Shown in pieces: positions 9,619 to 17,468 of a stretch of 26,277 bases of DNA. The DNA is from a virus. Under the pieces are notes generated by a model. The model saw only the letters and a list, made by a program, of their open reading frames with translations. It had not been told where the DNA came from and did not search any database. Position 1 is the first letter of the stretch, and each line of letters opens with the position of its first letter. The translations under genes and the position numbers were made by a program. Where the stretch lies: positions 1-26,277 of the IMG/VR virus record IMGVR_UViG_3300012920_000225; one strand, 5' to 3'.

Positions 9619-10965
9619 ATGTTTGCTAAAATGTCTAGAGGTGAGTGGCTGAAGTACGGCAACAAAAGACCTGATGCTTTAAGATCGGCAATCAAAAATG
9701 GTGATCCTGTTCCTGATATAAATGGTAAGAGTTTGGATATACCAAACACTAAACAAAATATGGACGCCATCACAGATTTTTTAAACAACAAAGACTCAAC
9801 ATTCTTACTTACATTAAAAAATAAAAAGACTATTGTTTCTAATCAAATTGGCAAATCTCCGTTATTTGGAGGTAAAGGGAAAGGCGCTGGTGCGACTGGC
9901 GATACTGCGAAAGGTGAATCACTACAATGTTTATACTTAGCAGCTTTGTTTGGAGAAGGTAAGAACAAAGAATTTTCACACTTTACACCTGAGGTCTTGA
10001 AGAAATATTCTAAGGTTGTAGAAACAGACAAAACATTTGAAGAAATGATGAGCTCTGAAGCAGAGTGGCACATCTCAGCATATGTTTCTGGCCAGCACTT
10101 AATAAAAACTGGATACGCAAGATCTGATCATGTATTTCATAGAGGCTCAAGAGTAATGAACGCAATATACGCTATGAAAAAAATGGCTTTCAAAAATGAA
10201 GGTAAGCCAATGATGAATGATGACAAGTGGAATCCTGGTGACATTTGGGCTGTTAAAAAAGGCTTAAACGTTTCTTCAGTTTTAGATCCTACAACTATCA
10301 CCTCATTAAATGATAGTTTAAAACAAGCTTTTGAAAAAAGAACTATTGTAGGGATATCTTTAAAACAGATTAATAAGTTAACAAAAAAAGCAAAGCACAC
10401 AGAATATAATCTTATTCCTGAACCAGATAAAGCTCATAGGTATTCTAAGTCTACTTTGAAATCTGATAGAAAAGGTTCTAGTTACTGGTCCTTTAAAGGT
10501 GGATATATCTTCTATGATTCTTCTAAAAAGATGGACGTTAGAGCTCCAACCGCTCTAGGTTCAATAAACGTAGAGATTCAAGGAAAAGGCGCCAGAGGCG
10601 GTAGAGCTGGTTACGGCGCCATAATGTATGGTGCTGAGAATATCTTAAACGTTAAACTTCCGTCAAACAATGAGTTAAAAAGTATGTCTAAACTAATGAT
10701 GGCTGGAAGGAACGAAAGACTAGCAAAAAATTTACATCAAAAAGTTAGAAGGATACATCCTGATGTAGGATGGGATGATTTCTGGAAAGAGATGAAAGAA
10801 GCTCCAGCTGATAGAATACACGCAAATCTTGGAGCTACAGAAATCATATATAACTTAGATAAATCACCTTTAAAAAAGAGAGATGCCTTTGTAAGTTATC
10901 TTGTCAACTTAGCAGGATCTAAGACTGGCGACTCATCTGTCTATGTAAAAGTAGAATCATCGTAA
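9619..10965 (+). CDS. Conserved phage protein, possible PD-(D/E)XK-type nuclease
   Basis: This 448-residue protein starts after AAAGGAA. The N-terminal 40 residues (SRGEWLKYGNKRPDALRSAI) form a helix found in other phage proteins I recall. A Gly-rich segment at 84-95 leads into KGESLQCLYLAA (about 99-110). Further on are WNPGDIWAV (204-212) and GISLKQ (245-250). The order Glu100 ... Asp208 ... SLK(247-249) resembles the active-site layout of restriction-like nucleases, with Ser in place of the usual Asp/Glu; this is inference only. The rest is basic and Gly-rich. It is the first gene after the TTCG terminator and a late-type promoter box, and precedes the putative internal head proteins. Confidence 0.72.
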   Translation: MFAKMSRGEWLKYGNKRPDALRSAIKNGDPVPDINGKSLDIPNTKQNMDAITDFLNNKDSTFLLTLKNKKTIVSNQIGKSPLFGGKGKGAGATGDTAKGESLQCLYLAALFGEGKNKEFSHFTPEVLKKYSKVVETDKTFEEMMSSEAEWHISAYVSGQHLIKTGYARSDHVFHRGSRVMNAIYAMKKMAFKNEGKPMMNDDKWNPGDIWAVKKGLNVSSVLDPTTITSLNDSLKQAFEKRTIVGISLKQINKLTKKAKHTEYNLIPEPDKAHRYSKSTLKSDRKGSSYWSFKGGYIFYDSSKKMDVRAPTALGSINVEIQGKGARGGRAGYGAIMYGAENILNVKLPSNNELKSMSKLMMAGRNERLAKNLHQKVRRIHPDVGWDDFWKEMKEAPADRIHANLGATEIIYNLDKSPLKKRDAFVSYLVNLAGSKTGDSSVYVKVESS

Positions 10966-11008: not shown

Positions 11009-12238
11009 ATGGAAAATTTTAAAACACATATTACTGAGAATAAAAATACACATATGACTCACATAGAAGATCGTGTGATTTACGGTGGAGTAAAAGGAAC
11101 TCGCGAAGCAATATTTGCTCTTCGAGATCTAAGAGACATGCTTGGAGGAGTTAAAGATGGTAATGTATCTGTTAAGTGGGATGGCGCTCCTGCTATTTTT
11201 GCTGGCACTGATCCAAGTGACGGTAAATTTTTCGTCGCTAAAAAAGGCATATTTAATAAAAACCCTAAAGTCTACAAGACTGATGCTGACGTGGATGCTG
11301 ATACTTCAGGCGATTTGGCTGTTAAGCTTAAGCTCGCACTAAAAGAATTACCTGCATTAGGGATAAAAGGTGTAATTCAAGGTGATTTTCTTTATGGACC
11401 TGGTGATGTAAAAACACAGAAAATAAAAGGAAAATCTTATGTTACCTTTCATCCAAACACTATCGTTTATGCGTTGCCAGCTGAGTCGATGGGAGCTAGA
11501 GACGTTAAGAAATCAAAAATTGGAATTGTCTGGCATACAACCTACACTGGTAACACCTTCAGTTCTATGCGAGCTTCGTACGGAGTTGATGTCTCCAAGT
11601 TTAAGTCAACCAGAAATGTGTGGAGCCAAGACGCAACGCTCAGGGATTTAACTAAAGTAACTATGAACAAACGTGATACGGAGATTGTGAATGAACATCT
11701 TTCAAAAGCTGGTCAACTATTTAACAAAATATCAGGTACAACCCTCAGAGAGCTCGAAAAAAACAAAGAGTTACAGAGCCTCATTGAAACCTACAATAAT
11801 ACCTTTGTCAGAGCAGGCACGGTTATTGGAAATACAAGAGGACACGTATCTGGGCTTATTTCATGGATCAGCAAAAGATATAAAAAAGAAATAGACAAAA
11901 GAAAAACAGACAAAGGTAAAGCGGCTCAACAAGCAAAATTAGATACAATCTTAAACTTTTTTTCAAATAATAACAAAAAAAGTTTAGAAATGATGTTTGA
12001 ATTGCAAAAAGAATTAGTTTTAGCCAAATTAAAACTTATAAATATACTTAACAAATTGAGTAATATTGATACTTTTGTAAAAACTAAGAAAGGTTTTAAA
12101 ACGACAGGTCACGAAGGTTATGTAGCAATTGATAGACTTGGTGGTGACGCGGTAAAGATTGTTGATAGATTAGAATTTTCATACAACAACTTTTCGCCGA
12201 ATATATTAAAGGGATGGGACAAGCCAACGAGGAAGTAA
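11009..12238 (+). CDS. Nucleotidyltransferase/ligase-like protein with capsid-targeting-like N-terminus (DUF6267-like)
   Basis: The 409-residue protein begins with MENFKTHITE, like the T4 internal-protein leader MKTYQEFIAE, with a possible prohead protease site after ITE. I recall this family in T4-like cyanophages as DUF6267, function unknown. It shows, in order, VKWDGAPA (Lys56, KxDG as in ligase motif I), IQGDFLYG (123-130, like motif III), HEGYVAI (368-374, like motif IV) and VKIV (382-385, like motif V). This is the order of DNA/RNA ligases and capping enzymes, where the Lys carries AMP or GMP. About 240 mostly helical residues separate motifs III and IV, more than usual. Start: ATG at 11009, though an ATG at 11054 is possible; neither has a strong ribosome site. 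Confidence 0.75.
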   Translation: MENFKTHITENKNTHMTHIEDRVIYGGVKGTREAIFALRDLRDMLGGVKDGNVSVKWDGAPAIFAGTDPSDGKFFVAKKGIFNKNPKVYKTDADVDADTSGDLAVKLKLALKELPALGIKGVIQGDFLYGPGDVKTQKIKGKSYVTFHPNTIVYALPAESMGARDVKKSKIGIVWHTTYTGNTFSSMRASYGVDVSKFKSTRNVWSQDATLRDLTKVTMNKRDTEIVNEHLSKAGQLFNKISGTTLRELEKNKELQSLIETYNNTFVRAGTVIGNTRGHVSGLISWISKRYKKEIDKRKTDKGKAAQQAKLDTILNFFSNNNKKSLEMMFELQKELVLAKLKLINILNKLSNIDTFVKTKKGFKTTGHEGYVAIDRLGGDAVKIVDRLEFSYNNFSPNILKGWDKPTRK

Positions 12239-12670
12239 ATGTTAGGTTTTAAAGATATGATGGTCGTCGACTATGCACCCGGCGAACCAGTAGAAATAAA
12301 ATATAGAAGAAAACGCCGTAAAGTGCAAGACACTGAAGAGGCGTTATCAATTCCACAAAAAATGAAACTCGCTAGACGTATGTCTAAGCTAGCTCCACGC
12401 TTAAAGATAGCGCGGAAAAGAGCTATGATGAGAATGGCATCTAAAGAAAAGCTTAGAGGAAGAGCGAGGAAAGAAGCTCGTAATTTTTTCTTTTTGAAGC
12501 TTTCTAAAGGTGTACCAAAAGATCAATTACCTTATGCTCGTCGTGCAGAGATTGAAAAAAGGCTGGATAAGCCAGCAATGAAACAGAAGATAGATAAATA
12601 TGCAATGAGAATTTTACCAAAAGTTCGTAAGCGTGACAAAGAAAAATTAAATCGCGGTGGCAGTAAGTAA
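12239..12670 (+). CDS. Very basic conserved phage protein, probably nucleic-acid-binding virion protein
   Basis: The 143-residue protein is strongly basic (clusters such as KYRRKRRK and RKEARNFFFLKLSKG) and almost entirely helical. The beginning (MLGFKDMMVVDYAPGEPVEIKYRRK) and the downstream 'YARRAEIEKRL' are, as I recall, conserved in cyanophages. The first residues MLGFKD echo the leader-like starts of neighbouring genes but lack an obvious cleavage Glu. It abuts the preceding stop directly and shares the last A of its TAA with the ATG of the next gene. The charge suggests packing against DNA inside the head; this is inference. Confidence 0.8.
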   Translation: MLGFKDMMVVDYAPGEPVEIKYRRKRRKVQDTEEALSIPQKMKLARRMSKLAPRLKIARKRAMMRMASKEKLRGRARKEARNFFFLKLSKGVPKDQLPYARRAEIEKRLDKPAMKQKIDKYAMRILPKVRKRDKEKLNRGGSK

Positions 12671-13938
12671 TGCATACATCTTTTAAACAGTTTCTAGTAG
12701 AAGAAGAGAAGACGGTTTATTTTACATTTGGTAGAATGAATCCTCCTACTATTGGTCATGGTAAAGTGCTAGAAGCACTAGCTAAAAAGTCTGCTAAGAA
12801 TCCGTATAAAGTCTTTTTGTCTCAGACAAAGGATTCTAAGAAAAATCCACTTACTTATCAAGATAAAATAAAAGCTGTAAGGAAAATGTTTCCAAGACAT
12901 GCTCGATCTATCATGCTTGATAAAAAAGTAAAAAATGCTATGGAAGCTGCCTCTTCACTATACGATGAAGGATATAAAAACCTAGTCATGGTAGTAGGTT
13001 CTGATAGAATAAATGAGTTTTCAACTCTACTAAAAAAATATAATGGCAAAGACGGTAGACATGGCTTTTACAATTTTAAAAATATAAATGTAATTTCAGC
13101 TGGAGATAGAGATCCTGATGCTGAAGGAGCTACAGGAATGTCAGCAACTAAGATGAGAGAGTTTGCTAGAGAAAACAACTTTACTTCATTTAGCCAAGGA
13201 CTACCTAAAAACGTTTCTAATCCTGATGCTAAGAAAATGTTTAACGATGTAAGAAAAGGCATGGGATTGAAAGAAGAAAATGAGTTTAAAAGACACGTAC
13301 AATTAGAAACAGTTTCCGAAACAAGAGAAGCTTTTGTAAGAGGGGAATTGTTTGAAGTAGGGCAAGATGTCATAATAGAAAAGACCGGTGAAGTTGGTAA
13401 GATTGAAATCATTGGATCTAACTACGTAATAGTAGATATAAATGGTAATAGATCAAGGCAATGGCCAGAAGCTATAGAGATAGTTGAAGAGATGAAATAT
13501 GATTATGGAAGTCCTGAATCTGTAAAGCTCATGAAGAAGATGACACCAGGCCAAAATGAGTCAGATGAGAGAAAAAAAGGATCACCTCAAGATCCTGATA
13601 TAAAAGATAGAAAAGGTACTCAGCCAAAAGCTTACCATGCAGGCCTATCAAAAGCACAAAAGATTTCAAGAGATCGCCAGTTTAAGAGACAGTCTAAGAT
13701 GGATGATGATAATCCAGCGGCATATAAACCAGCGGCTGGAGATAAGACAGCAAAGACTAAACCATCTAAACACACTAAGAGATTTAAAGATATGTTTGGT
13801 GAGGATATACCTTCTCATGAAAAAATGGCGAAGGAAAGAATAAAAAAAATAAAAACTAATAATGCTAAAAGGTTCGACAGAATGATGGACCGTGCTAGAA
13901 ATAGAGATACTAATAAAAAGAATAGAGAGACAAAATGA
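12670..13938 (+). CDS. HxGH-type adenylyl/cytidylyltransferase with basic C-terminal tail
   Basis: This 422-residue protein starts with a leader-like MHTSFKQFLVEE. The catalytic domain spans about 15-185: FGRMNPPTIGHGK at 20-32 (TIGH replaces HxGH), VVGSDR at 108-113 and GMSATKMREFA at 156-166, equal to the ISSTxxR motif. The family moves a nucleotide from ATP or CTP onto a phosphate, as in NMN or pantetheine-phosphate adenylyltransferases; the true substrate is unknown. After it come a beta-rich KOW/SH3-like segment (about 222-275, VGQDVIIEKTGEVGKIEIIG) and a basic low-complexity tail with AAYKPAAGDKTAKTKPSKHT, a stretch I recall from cyanophage proteins. It overlaps the next gene by 4 bases. 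Confidence 0.85.
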   Translation: MHTSFKQFLVEEEKTVYFTFGRMNPPTIGHGKVLEALAKKSAKNPYKVFLSQTKDSKKNPLTYQDKIKAVRKMFPRHARSIMLDKKVKNAMEAASSLYDEGYKNLVMVVGSDRINEFSTLLKKYNGKDGRHGFYNFKNINVISAGDRDPDAEGATGMSATKMREFARENNFTSFSQGLPKNVSNPDAKKMFNDVRKGMGLKEENEFKRHVQLETVSETREAFVRGELFEVGQDVIIEKTGEVGKIEIIGSNYVIVDINGNRSRQWPEAIEIVEEMKYDYGSPESVKLMKKMTPGQNESDERKKGSPQDPDIKDRKGTQPKAYHAGLSKAQKISRDRQFKRQSKMDDDNPAAYKPAAGDKTAKTKPSKHTKRFKDMFGEDIPSHEKMAKERIKKIKTNNAKRFDRMMDRARNRDTNKKNRETK

Positions 13939-14189
13939 TTACATTTAAGACTTATATAGCTGAAAAAGCTACAGCAGCTTTAAAGAAGAAAGCTGAAAAG
14001 AGTGGAATGCCTCTTGGTATTCTTAGACAAGTTTATAATCGTGGTGTAGCAGCTTGGCGTACAGGACACAGGCCTGGCACTAATCCACAGCAATGGGGTC
14101 TAGCTCGAGTAAATTCATTTACAACAAAGTCCTCAGGTACATGGGGAAAAGCTGATAAAGATCTAGCAGCAAAAGTAAGAGGTAGTTAA
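13935..14189 (+). CDS. Small phage protein with capsid-targeting-like leader (DUF5824-like)
   Basis: The 84-residue protein begins MITFKTYIAE, ten residues that line up without gaps with T4 MKTYQEFIAE and end in IAE, a gp21-type cleavage site. The remaining domain (SGMPLGILRQVYNRGVAAW, then TGHRPGTNPQQWGLARVNSF) matches a small phage family that I recall as DUF5824, function unknown. It overlaps the preceding gene by ATGA and is 1 base from the next. It is the clearest candidate here for an internal head protein. Confidence 0.85.
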   Translation: MITFKTYIAEKATAALKKKAEKSGMPLGILRQVYNRGVAAWRTGHRPGTNPQQWGLARVNSFTTKSSGTWGKADKDLAAKVRGS

Positions 14190-14190
14190 G

Positions 14191-15594
14191 ATGTCAAAAG
14201 CTAACGAAAATGTCAGAAGTGCAGATAAAAAACCTGAAATGTACACTAAGCCAGATGGAAAACGTGGCGTTAGAATGGTTGCAGTAGATAGAGAAATTGT
14301 TAAAAAGGACGCTAAGACCGAAGGCGCGATGAAGCGTATGGCAACTTCTCAATCTAGTAAACCTGACAGGATGGCTGGAAAAGGTTTAGACACCTATAAG
14401 AAAAAACCAGCAGAAATTATTCGTAGTAAAAAGCCTATATATAAATTAGTTCGTGACACTCTTCCTCGATATGATCAAGCAAGACGTCAGGAAGAAGCAT
14501 ACATTGATCATAGATCTGACAAAATAGGCCCATCAAATGTAGGTATGACACATTCCAAAGCTGAAAAAGCACACAGAGATATGGCTTCTAAACTAGCGAG
14601 TAGTCATAAAAGAACAGATTTGCATAGTGGAAGGAACTCAGTTGGTGATGTAATTAAAATGCATAAAAATGCAGCAGATCAACACGCAAAAGCATTGCGA
14701 GCTCATAACGCTGGTAAACATAGTCAGGCAAGAAACCATGCTAATAAAGCATCAAAACATGGTACTGATATATTTAATGCACATGCAAATGCAATTGGTG
14801 ACGCGAAAAAACATTCTTCAGCAGGAGTAGATGCTGTAAGTCATTCTCATGATGCTGAAAAGCGTAGTATTGCTAGTAAAGAAGCACAAAAAAATCAAAG
14901 AGAATCTACAGTTTATGAAGCATACAAAGTAGGACAAACCGTTAAGCCTACTAAAGGACCACATGCTGGTCAAGATCATGAAGTTATTCATGTTCATGGT
15001 GATGGTTCATATAATATCAAGCCGAAAAACATGCCAGCAAGCAGAATCAGATATAGACTAGGTGCTGCTAGAGCTAAGCATAATGAGTTAAAAGAAGCGT
15101 TAAAGGTATCTGATGGTATGGGTGCATGGATAGATGATTTCTCTAAATCAGACGCACCACAGTTTAAAGGCAAAAACAAAAAAGAAAAAAGAGACATGGC
15201 AATAGCTGCTTATCTTTCTGCAAAGAAAAATGAATCTAAAGAAATCGAAGAAAAGAAAATCACTCTTAGTAGAAAGCAGATGGATAGAGCTTTAGCGAAG
15301 GCAAAGGCAAAACCAGCCAGTCAAGTATCTTTAGCAAAAGCACCTTTTAAAATTCCCTCTAAAGACAGTAAATTAGATGAAGATACTCATACTGTCGATA
15401 TTGATCATATGGGCGGTCACGATTCTAACGCTAAGAAGCACAATATAACTATTAAAAAGTCTAGCGGTACTGACTATGCACATAGTGCTACAGGTAAGAA
15501 AAAAGATCTTCAAAAATATTTAGTTAAACATTATGATGATCATGAGACTGCAAAAGAAATTCACCCAGAAGTTTTTAAAGGGCATAAATCATGA
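14191..15594 (+). CDS. Multi-segment basic, His-rich phage protein, likely virion
   Basis: This 467-residue protein is a chain of separate segments. Residues 1-60 include KKPEMYTKPDGKRGVRMV, a stretch I recall in cyanophage head-region proteins. Residues about 115-235 are a His/Ala-rich helix with repeated AxxH spacing (KAEKAHRDMA, AADQHAKALRAHNAG). A KOW/SH3-like beta segment follows (VGQTVKPTKGPHAGQDHEVIH, about 248-290), then LKVSDGMGAWIDDF and SDAPQFKGKNKKEKRDMAIA, again recalled from cyanophages. The end is a small His-rich domain (TVDIDHMGGHDSN). Internal VYEA and LKEA match (L/I/V)xE-A sites for a prohead protease. It overlaps the next gene by ATGA. Confidence 0.75.
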   Translation: MSKANENVRSADKKPEMYTKPDGKRGVRMVAVDREIVKKDAKTEGAMKRMATSQSSKPDRMAGKGLDTYKKKPAEIIRSKKPIYKLVRDTLPRYDQARRQEEAYIDHRSDKIGPSNVGMTHSKAEKAHRDMASKLASSHKRTDLHSGRNSVGDVIKMHKNAADQHAKALRAHNAGKHSQARNHANKASKHGTDIFNAHANAIGDAKKHSSAGVDAVSHSHDAEKRSIASKEAQKNQRESTVYEAYKVGQTVKPTKGPHAGQDHEVIHVHGDGSYNIKPKNMPASRIRYRLGAARAKHNELKEALKVSDGMGAWIDDFSKSDAPQFKGKNKKEKRDMAIAAYLSAKKNESKEIEEKKITLSRKQMDRALAKAKAKPASQVSLAKAPFKIPSKDSKLDEDTHTVDIDHMGGHDSNAKKHNITIKKSSGTDYAHSATGKKKDLQKYLVKHYDDHETAKEIHPEVFKGHKS

Positions 15595-15944
15595 AGTTTA
15601 AAAGTTATATGGAAGAAGAAATAGATCTAACTTGTGAAAACTGTGATCTGTACGAAGATATGGAAATAACAGAAGCAGAGTATCAAGGGAAAAAGGTTAA
15701 ACTGAATGATCCTATTCGTACTTCTGAGAATCCAAATAAAAAGTTTAAAGTTTATACTATGGGCCCAAATGGAAAAGTTGTAGTTGTAAGATTTGGTGAT
15801 CCAAATATGGAAATCAAAAGAGATGATCCTGCGCGGCGTAAGAGCTTTAGAGCTCGCCACAATTGTGATAATCCTGGCCCTAAGTATAAAGCTAGATATT
15901 GGTCATGTTACCAATGGCGTGGATCATCAAAGGTAGATAACTAA
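15591..15944 (+). CDS. Conserved phage protein with leader-like N-terminus
   Basis: The 117-residue protein starts MKFKSYMEEE and then an acidic, Cys-containing segment to about residue 28, ending ITEA, which fits a gp21-type site (I-T-E before A29). The mature domain starting EYQGKKVKLNDPIRT and including FGDPNMEIKRDDP, ARHNCDNPGPKYKARYWSC is a family I recall from many tailed phages, with no clear enzymatic role. Four Cys at NC, CE, HNC and SC could bind metal. It overlaps neighbours by 4 bases upstream and 1 base downstream. Confidence 0.82.
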   Translation: MKFKSYMEEEIDLTCENCDLYEDMEITEAEYQGKKVKLNDPIRTSENPNKKFKVYTMGPNGKVVVVRFGDPNMEIKRDDPARRKSFRARHNCDNPGPKYKARYWSCYQWRGSSKVDN

Positions 15945-16171
15945 TGATTAAGTTTAGAGATTTTGTAGAAGGTTCTGAAACTTGGGAAGCAGGTTATAAG
16001 CGTAGAGTTGTAAAGACAACGAAACCTGAACACAAGAAAAAAGGACATAACTGGCGGATTAAAGGTAAAGATCGTCCTGAAATCTCTATAAAGTTATATA
16101 AAGAAAAGCCATCACAATCTGAATTTAATAAGCAAATGAAAAGAGTTGCTGGACACGAGTTCGGAGGATAG
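15944..16171 (+). CDS. Small basic phage protein with leader-like N-terminus
   Basis: The 75-residue protein begins MIKFRDFVEG, similar to the leaders of neighbouring genes, with FVE as a weaker cleavage site. The rest is basic: GHNWRIKGKDRPEISIKLY and SEFNKQMKRVAGHEF are, as I recall, conserved across phages with unknown function. Its last codons carry the GGAGG ribosome site of the next gene, so the two are coupled. Confidence 0.78.
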   Translation: MIKFRDFVEGSETWEAGYKRRVVKTTKPEHKKKGHNWRIKGKDRPEISIKLYKEKPSQSEFNKQMKRVAGHEFGG

Positions 16172-17096: not shown

Positions 17097-17468
17097 ATGA
17101 ATACTGGAGATAAAACACTAAATGCATTAGTTGATGCATATAAAAGTATGCAGCTCCATGAAGACATTAAAATGCATAATGCTATGGCAAGTTCTCATGA
17201 TCACCATGCTGTTAGACATGAAAGTGAAGCTACTAACAGTGATGATCATGAGCATTCATCAGATCATGACTATGCTAGTGGTGAACATACTGACGCTGAA
17301 AAAGCACATAAAGCTGCTGCTGATGCTCACAAAAAACATGGTGCAGGTTCTGAACAATATAAATCTGCTGCTGCTAAAGCAAAAGCTGCTACAGCAAACG
17401 CAAAAGATGCAGCATCAGGAGTTAAGTTTAAGCACGTGTCCAAGCCTAATCCTATGCCTAAACATTAA
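17097..17468 (+). CDS. His/Ala-rich helical protein
   Basis: AAGGAG lies 7 bases before the ATG. The 123-residue product contains about 15 His, grouped as SSHDHHAVRH and DDHEHSSDHD, then an Ala/Lys-rich helix (AEKAHKAAADAHKKHG) and a basic end. It shares the AEKAHxxxA-type repeat with the middle of the 14191 protein, so the two may be related by duplication. Such His clusters could bind metal or react to pH; this is inference. A second open frame of the same length overlaps it in another frame but has only low-complexity Leu/Met-rich sequence. Confidence 0.72.
   Translation: MNTGDKTLNALVDAYKSMQLHEDIKMHNAMASSHDHHAVRHESEATNSDDHEHSSDHDYASGEHTDAEKAHKAAADAHKKHGAGSEQYKSAAAKAKAATANAKDAASGVKFKHVSKPNPMPKH

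Follow-up and report, generated by a model that had tools for sequence, protein, structure and literature searches.

The closest described systems to the locus considered here are the internal proteins (IPs) IPI to IPIII of phage T4 and the T4 ADP-ribosyltransferase Alt. In the T4 record, ipII and ipIII both begin MKTYQEFIAE, and ipI begins MKTFKEFTSTT. Suppressor analysis of IPIII assigned targeting mainly to residues 4 and 7 of its capsid targeting sequence (CTS) and processing to residues 8 and 10 (PMC9026906). The IPs of T4 inhibit GmrSD nucleases, and in T-even phages, injected anti-restriction proteins have already been identified by means of the leader. Here, we examine the 26,277-base virus record IMGVR_UViG_3300012920_000225, hereafter the window (the whole stretch of DNA that was analyzed, a fragment of its genome), in which a run of genes opens with short N-terminal strings of a similar kind. 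A first-pass annotation had read these strings as capsid-targeting leaders, and our analysis supports that reading: the leader has the conservation pattern of the T4 CTS, stands on unrelated families, ends like a capsid processing site, and occurs in a group in which near-complete relatives encode a gp21-type protease and homologues of window genes 12670 and 9619 are reported from purified cyanophage virions. In our view, the leader very probably serves as a capsid targeting and processing signal of the T4 type, placed on a cargo that varies and is in part enzymatic.

The leader in the window

We defined the strict leader pattern as M-x(0-5)-F-x-x-[FYWH]-[LIVM]-x-E (M.{0,5}F..[FYWH][LIVM].E) at the N-terminus, and open reading frames (ORFs) of the window are named by their first position. 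Four of the 47 called window ORFs (11009, 12670, 13935, and 15591) match it, with their leaders at the extreme N-terminus and about 10 residues long, as is the case for a CTS. When the composition of the window ORFs was shuffled, the mean number of matches was 0.017, and none of the 242 internal methionines of these ORFs began a match. The leaders, the proteins behind them, and the two neighboring proteins that lack a leader are as follows.

11009..11038, plus strand: leader MENFKTHITE of the DUF6267 protein; strict pattern
11009..12238, plus strand: DUF6267 protein (PF19782), 409 aa, cargo candidate; Pfam E=6e-104
12239..12271, plus strand: leader front half MLGFKDMMVVD, without the (L/I)xE end; family conserves F-K-x-[FM]
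12239..12670, plus strand: small, very basic protein (pI 11.1), cargo candidate; weak phrog_23027 match
12670..12702, plus strand: leader MHTSFKQFLVE; strict pattern
12670..13938, plus strand: cytidylyltransferase/NMNAT-like protein, 422 aa, cargo candidate; PF01467 and phrog_3041/395
13935..13964, plus strand: leader MITFKTYIAE; spacing as in T4 MKTYQEFIAE
13935..14189, plus strand: stand-alone DUF5824 domain protein, 84 aa; PF19141 E=2e-17
14191..15594, plus strand: 467 aa protein within the run, without a leader; from homologous N-termini
15591..15617, plus strand: leader MKFKSYMEE; strict pattern
15591..15944, plus strand: 117 aa protein with a weak DUF5754 match, cargo candidate; from profile matches
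15944..15970, plus strand: partial leader MIKFRDFVE (F..FVEG); aromatic pair kept, E at F+5
15944..16171, plus strand: 75 aa basic protein (pI 10.1), cargo candidate; from sequence
9619..10965, plus strand: 448 aa protein directly upstream of the run, without a leader here; phrog_1462

All of the N-termini named in the first-pass annotation were found where it had placed them, each on an ATG start. Its count of five leaders stands for four; the fifth, on 15944, keeps only the front half of the pattern, without the (L/I)xE end, and a homologue of 15944 in one related contig (G001) has the full leader MIKFKQFISE. The genes had been described as near-consecutive, and that wording is apt, since 14191 lies within the run and has no leader. 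The full pattern is present in none of 22 distinct homologous N-termini of the 14191 family, one of which begins MKTFDQLLEN. The idea that 12239 carries a decayed leader also agrees with its family, which keeps F-K-x-[FM] (F in 93% and K in 93%), mostly without the E, and whose member in the related phage C48C1 begins MLSFKQFVSE. Likewise, MITFKTYIAE has exactly the spacing of the ipII and ipIII leader to which it had been compared. For 9619, the leader is present in 11 of 30 family members. Just past the leader run, positions 17097-17468 hold a small His/Ala-rich protein with 2 homologue matches among the related loci introduced below.

Distribution and conservation among relatives

The nearest annotated relative for the window DUF6267 gene is C48C1 (66% amino-acid identity), and the next closest are Stenotrophomonas phage DLP_6, Methylophilales phages including Melnitz, and Pelagibacter phage HTVC008M; C48C1, Melnitz, and HTVC008M are placed in the Kyanoviridae. 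Our sample of relatives comprised the window and 155 related IMG/VR loci, fetched by their DUF6267 and cytidylyltransferase genes with a flank of at most 10 kb. Because two of the patterns used as fetch queries were leader peptides, DUF6267 and 12670 may be somewhat overcounted; no other family served as a query. The strict leader is found on 281 of 1,882 distinct ORFs, compared with 2.5 expected from internal methionines. In a separate count, 268 of 2,269 first starts carried it, compared with 10 of 8,945 internal methionines. Leader-bearing ORFs occur in 21 of the 490 sequence clusters, and fused domains join several families in the largest cluster. At least about 20 unrelated families share the leader, which occurs at roughly 100 times the internal-methionine background. 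Among the tagged proteins of the relatives are a zeta-toxin/AAA_33-like kinase, a PAP2-like protein, and a HAD-like protein (with a HAD match below the Pfam cut-off), and the single phage C48C1 has six leader genes. The pattern is short and degenerate, and a common N-terminal composition rich in M, K, F, and E could yield such strings by chance. However, this origin is refuted by the shuffled window ORFs, by the internal methionines, and by two marine podoviruses in which the leader is on 0 of 128 ORFs, and we give it a negligible probability.

A signal in the DNA or at the start of translation was also considered and rejected. Both synonymous codons are used at the F (TTT in 236 leaders, TTC in 45) and at the E (GAA in 232, GAG in 49), which means that the amino acids are conserved and not the DNA. 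Together with the variable spacing from the M, this mixed codon use rules such a signal out.

Conservation within families follows the positions known from T4. In 83 distinct N-termini of DUF6267 proteins, F4 is kept in 90%, Y/F/H7 in 84%, I/L8 in 98%, and E10 in 98%, whereas positions 2, 3, 5, and 6 are free to vary (entropy of 2.4 to 2.7 bits). The same columns in 81 distinct N-termini of 12670 homologues give F in 98%, Y/F in 96%, L in 88%, and E in 93%. The four conserved positions of the DUF6267 leader are those that matter in the T4 CTS. The leader genes are clustered, so gene starts may plausibly have been duplicated or recombined. Under such a history, or under mere conservation within families, the leader itself would be functionless. 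Common descent alone nevertheless seems very unlikely to account for the leader: the proteins behind it are unrelated, its four conserved residues are separated from their freely varying neighbors, and one domain, DUF5824, is tagged when it stands alone.

The behavior of DUF5824 is informative as to how the leader is distributed. This domain is a separate gene with its own leader both in the window and in C48C1, and in HTVC008M it lies inside an annotated cytidylyltransferase gene. Across the loci, all 31 distinct stand-alone copies carry a leader (24 full and 7 front-half), whereas 19 of the 24 fused copies have no motif before the domain, 4 have an internal motif, and 1 has a partial one. 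A domain tagged when it stands alone and mostly untagged when it is fused is what one would see if every cargo protein that is made separately has to carry a tag. The stand-alone C-terminal domain of 12670 is a weaker test of modularity, with a full leader in just one of five cases. The leader genes are also grouped along the chromosome: in four whole genomes, most of them are confined to a single stretch of about 12 genes (permutation p 0.0003 to 0.007). In loci L115, L122, L144, and L156, fused cytidylyltransferase-type proteins have a leader-like string (FTFEDYIVE, LTFEDFMVE, or FTFEDYMIE) just before DUF5824. These internal strings look like the product of fusion of a tagged gene, or could alternatively be a protease site.

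Head protease, virion proteomes, and the role of the leader

The annotations of C48C1 and HTVC008M include a gp21-type protease, which was also detected in 6 of 18 relative contigs, including all three of the longest (147 to 157 kb). The first-pass annotation had proposed a search for gp21 in the full genome, and in the near-complete relatives examined, the protease was indeed found. In T4, the propeptide of the major capsid protein is 65 residues long, with its processing site at E65 (PMC9026906). This site reads FLTE in T4; the predicted sites of the relatives, as aligned to T4 E65, are FLTE in C48C1 and G001, FLAE in contig G003 and in the cyanophage S-SCSM1, FLGE in HTVC008M, FLSE in G008, LLTE in the cyanophage S-CREM2, and QLQE in G002. 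Among leaders, the most frequent final residues are YLVE, FLVE, FITE, and YITE, and in their general form, [FY][LI]xE, they are similar in sequence to the site at which T4 and most relatives process the major capsid protein.

Leaders may also target without being cut, in which case most of them would serve entry into the head and nothing more, and the (L/I)xE end would be there by accident. In the 12239, 15591, and 15944 families, the targeting half, F..[FY], is often retained and the processing half with its E lost, and most members of the 12239 and 15944 families do not combine I/L8 with E10. In T4, a change of residue 10 stops cutting and leaves targeting unaffected (PMC9026906). However, the E of the DUF6267 proteins and of the 12670 homologues is conserved about as strongly as the F, and we therefore regard targeting without cutting as unlikely.

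Mass-spectrometry studies of purified cyanophage virions provide a second line of evidence, and they support the presence in virions of homologues of the window genes 12670 and 9619. The S-CREM2 virion proteome contains gp6, gp12, gp13, gp14, and gp154 (PMC10665884). Of these, the SAM hydrolase gp6 begins MKDFDSFLEE, gp13 begins MKDLHSFLTE, the APH-like kinase gp14 begins MKRFDAFLTEEE, and the cytidylyltransferase gp154 begins MKNFSSFLTE. With the strict pattern limited to F, the leader is on 3 of 25 non-structural virion ORFs of S-CREM2 versus 0 of 169 non-virion ORFs (Fisher p=0.0019; about 0.002 to 0.003). The cytidylyltransferase T4-GC190 is present in virions of cyanophage S-SM1 (PMC3037559), where its gene begins MKKFSAFLNE. 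In S-SCSM1, gp89 to gp93 are consecutive genes that are all tagged as virion proteins; gp90 is the homologue of 9619, and gp91, with the leader MKSFLQFLKE, is the homologue of 12670. The accessible portions of the S-CREM2, S-SCSM1, and S-SM1 virion studies describe no common N-terminal signal. Two further proteins of these virions can be mentioned. S-CREM2 gp12 (locus L170, 7704-10313, minus strand), annotated as Cas9/Csn1, has the string RFASFMAE approximately 18 residues past its start. In S-SCSM1 (locus L179, 24559-24993), the translational repressor RegA is tagged as a virion protein and has no leader.

The leader could also act outside the head, by docking proteins on a partner of the phage or the host that is not part of the capsid, such as RNA polymerase, the replisome, or an assembly in the cytoplasm. 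In HTVC008M, S-SM1, and Melnitz, the gene cluster adjoins the replication genes uvsX and gp41 rather than head genes, and the virion homologues might be contaminants. However, the IP genes of T4 likewise lie away from the head genes, the homologues were reported in several independent virion proteomes, and both the capsid-like end of the leader and its agreement with the T4 CTS at four positions point to the head. A non-capsid partner is, in our estimation, quite improbable.

Several observations weigh against a capsid targeting and processing signal. Cleavage at a leader is supported by no peptide. In S-SCSM1, the leader is no predictor of virion presence (1 of 47 virion proteins and 3 of 233 others, p=0.52), and gp90 is tagged as a virion protein and lacks a leader. 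The authors of the S-CREM2 and S-SCSM1 studies warn that these proteins may be contaminants of their CsCl preparations. No gp21 match was obtained in 12 of the 18 relative contigs, which are fragments of 32 to 115 kb and carry little weight, or in the window, itself a 26 kb fragment. The full leader is absent from most HTVC008M genes, and the DUF6267 protein of cyanophage S-SM1 retains the domain without a full leader. The loss of the leader from a retained domain had been named in advance as evidence against the signal; it is seen in part, in some cyanophage DUF6267 proteins and in gp90 of S-SCSM1.

Candidate cargo proteins and comparison with known systems

The proteins behind the leader are diverse. 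ORF 12670 matches the NMNAT/cytidylyltransferase superfamily (PF01467 just above the cut-off; cytidyltransferase PHROGs at E=1e-79), and its motifs GRMNPPTIGHG and GMSATKMR fit the GxxxPPxxGH and STxxR types. By these matches it is a member of the superfamily, with a predicted activity. Its family also has a conserved C-terminus, KHTK[KR]FKxM[FY]GE, that resembles the leader pattern (F..M[FY]xE). In the DUF6267 alignment, K56-x-D-G and E369-G-x-V are invariant, and these columns are only suggestive of a covalent nucleotidyltransferase. DUF6267 was tried as a DNA/RNA ligase-type nucleotidyltransferase, which the searches did not support: hhalign gave no match to T4 Rnl1, Rnl2, or gp30, a PDB profile search was negative, and Foldseek on a low-confidence AF2 model (pLDDT 61) gave no ligase match. 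The model of 9619 is confident (pLDDT 89) and has no PDB match, and its BFVD matches are uncharacterised marine-phage proteins. Invariant D208 and S247-x-K249 in this protein might suggest a nuclease-like site. None of the IPI, IPII, and IPIII families is among the Pfam, PHROG, and NCBIfam matches of the window cargo proteins, which do not appear to be members of these families.

Taken as a T4-type signal, the leader would work in three steps. It would probably form a short amphipathic helix that presents F4, Y/F7, and I/L8 and docks the new protein on the prohead core. A gp21-type S77 protease would then cut after [FY][LI]xE, the type of site that frees the major capsid protein, and the mature cargo protein would stay in the head. 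Finally, by analogy with the T4 IPs and Alt, the cargo would exit together with the DNA and become active in the host immediately. The leader and its conservation are seen directly in the sequences, and we infer docking, cutting, and injection. The cargo itself would be a changeable set encoded in one gene cluster: in the window, an NMNAT-like nucleotidylyltransferase, DUF6267, DUF5824, and small basic proteins; in relatives, a zeta-toxin-like kinase, a HAD-like protein, and a PAP2-like protein.

We give an even chance to a broader proposal, namely that the N-terminal tag marks an injected repertoire in a large group of marine T4-like phages. Such a repertoire would be a swappable cluster whose products are loaded into the head, trimmed by gp21, delivered with the DNA, and active before phage gene expression, and it would include nucleotide-related and possibly RNA-repair or NAD-related enzymes (NMNAT-like, DUF6267 with its ligase-like motifs, zeta-type kinase, and HAD-like). 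Should the signal be functional in marine T4-like phages, sequence alone could reveal the virion cargo of an abundant group of ocean viruses that mostly cannot be grown. Proteins that now stand as possible contaminants in the published virion studies (NMNAT, kinase, and SAM hydrolase) would become a testable class of injected enzymes. A limited literature search, with most subscription journals outside its coverage, found no report of leaders of this kind in marine phages and no mention of the T4 leader string or of DUF6267.

Among cyanophages, S-CREM2, S-SCSM1, S-CBWM1, and S-SM1 offer virion-associated NMNAT/cytidylyltransferase and APH-like kinase proteins for comparison. The 12670 homologues in S-CREM2, S-SCSM1, and S-SM1 virions all begin with the leader; the S-CREM2 and S-SCSM1 studies left contamination open. 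T4 Alt would share with the window the use of an enzyme as head cargo, and Alt itself is N-terminally processed and injected (PMC9026906). However, it begins MELITELFDE, unlike the F..[FY][LI]xE leader, and no Alt-like domain was among the Pfam and PHROG matches of the cluster proteins searched. The closest likeness is to the CTS of IPI to IPIII. Both are 10-residue N-terminal signals in which two aromatic residues, I/L, and E are spaced alike, both stand on unrelated proteins with only the leader in common, and both go with a gp21-type protease and a repertoire that varies between relatives. They differ in what is carried: gene lengths indicate small IPs of 95 to 193 residues in T4, whereas the candidate cargo of the window exceeds 400 residues at its largest, includes enzyme families, has no detected homology to the IPs, and belongs to marine phages of other hosts.

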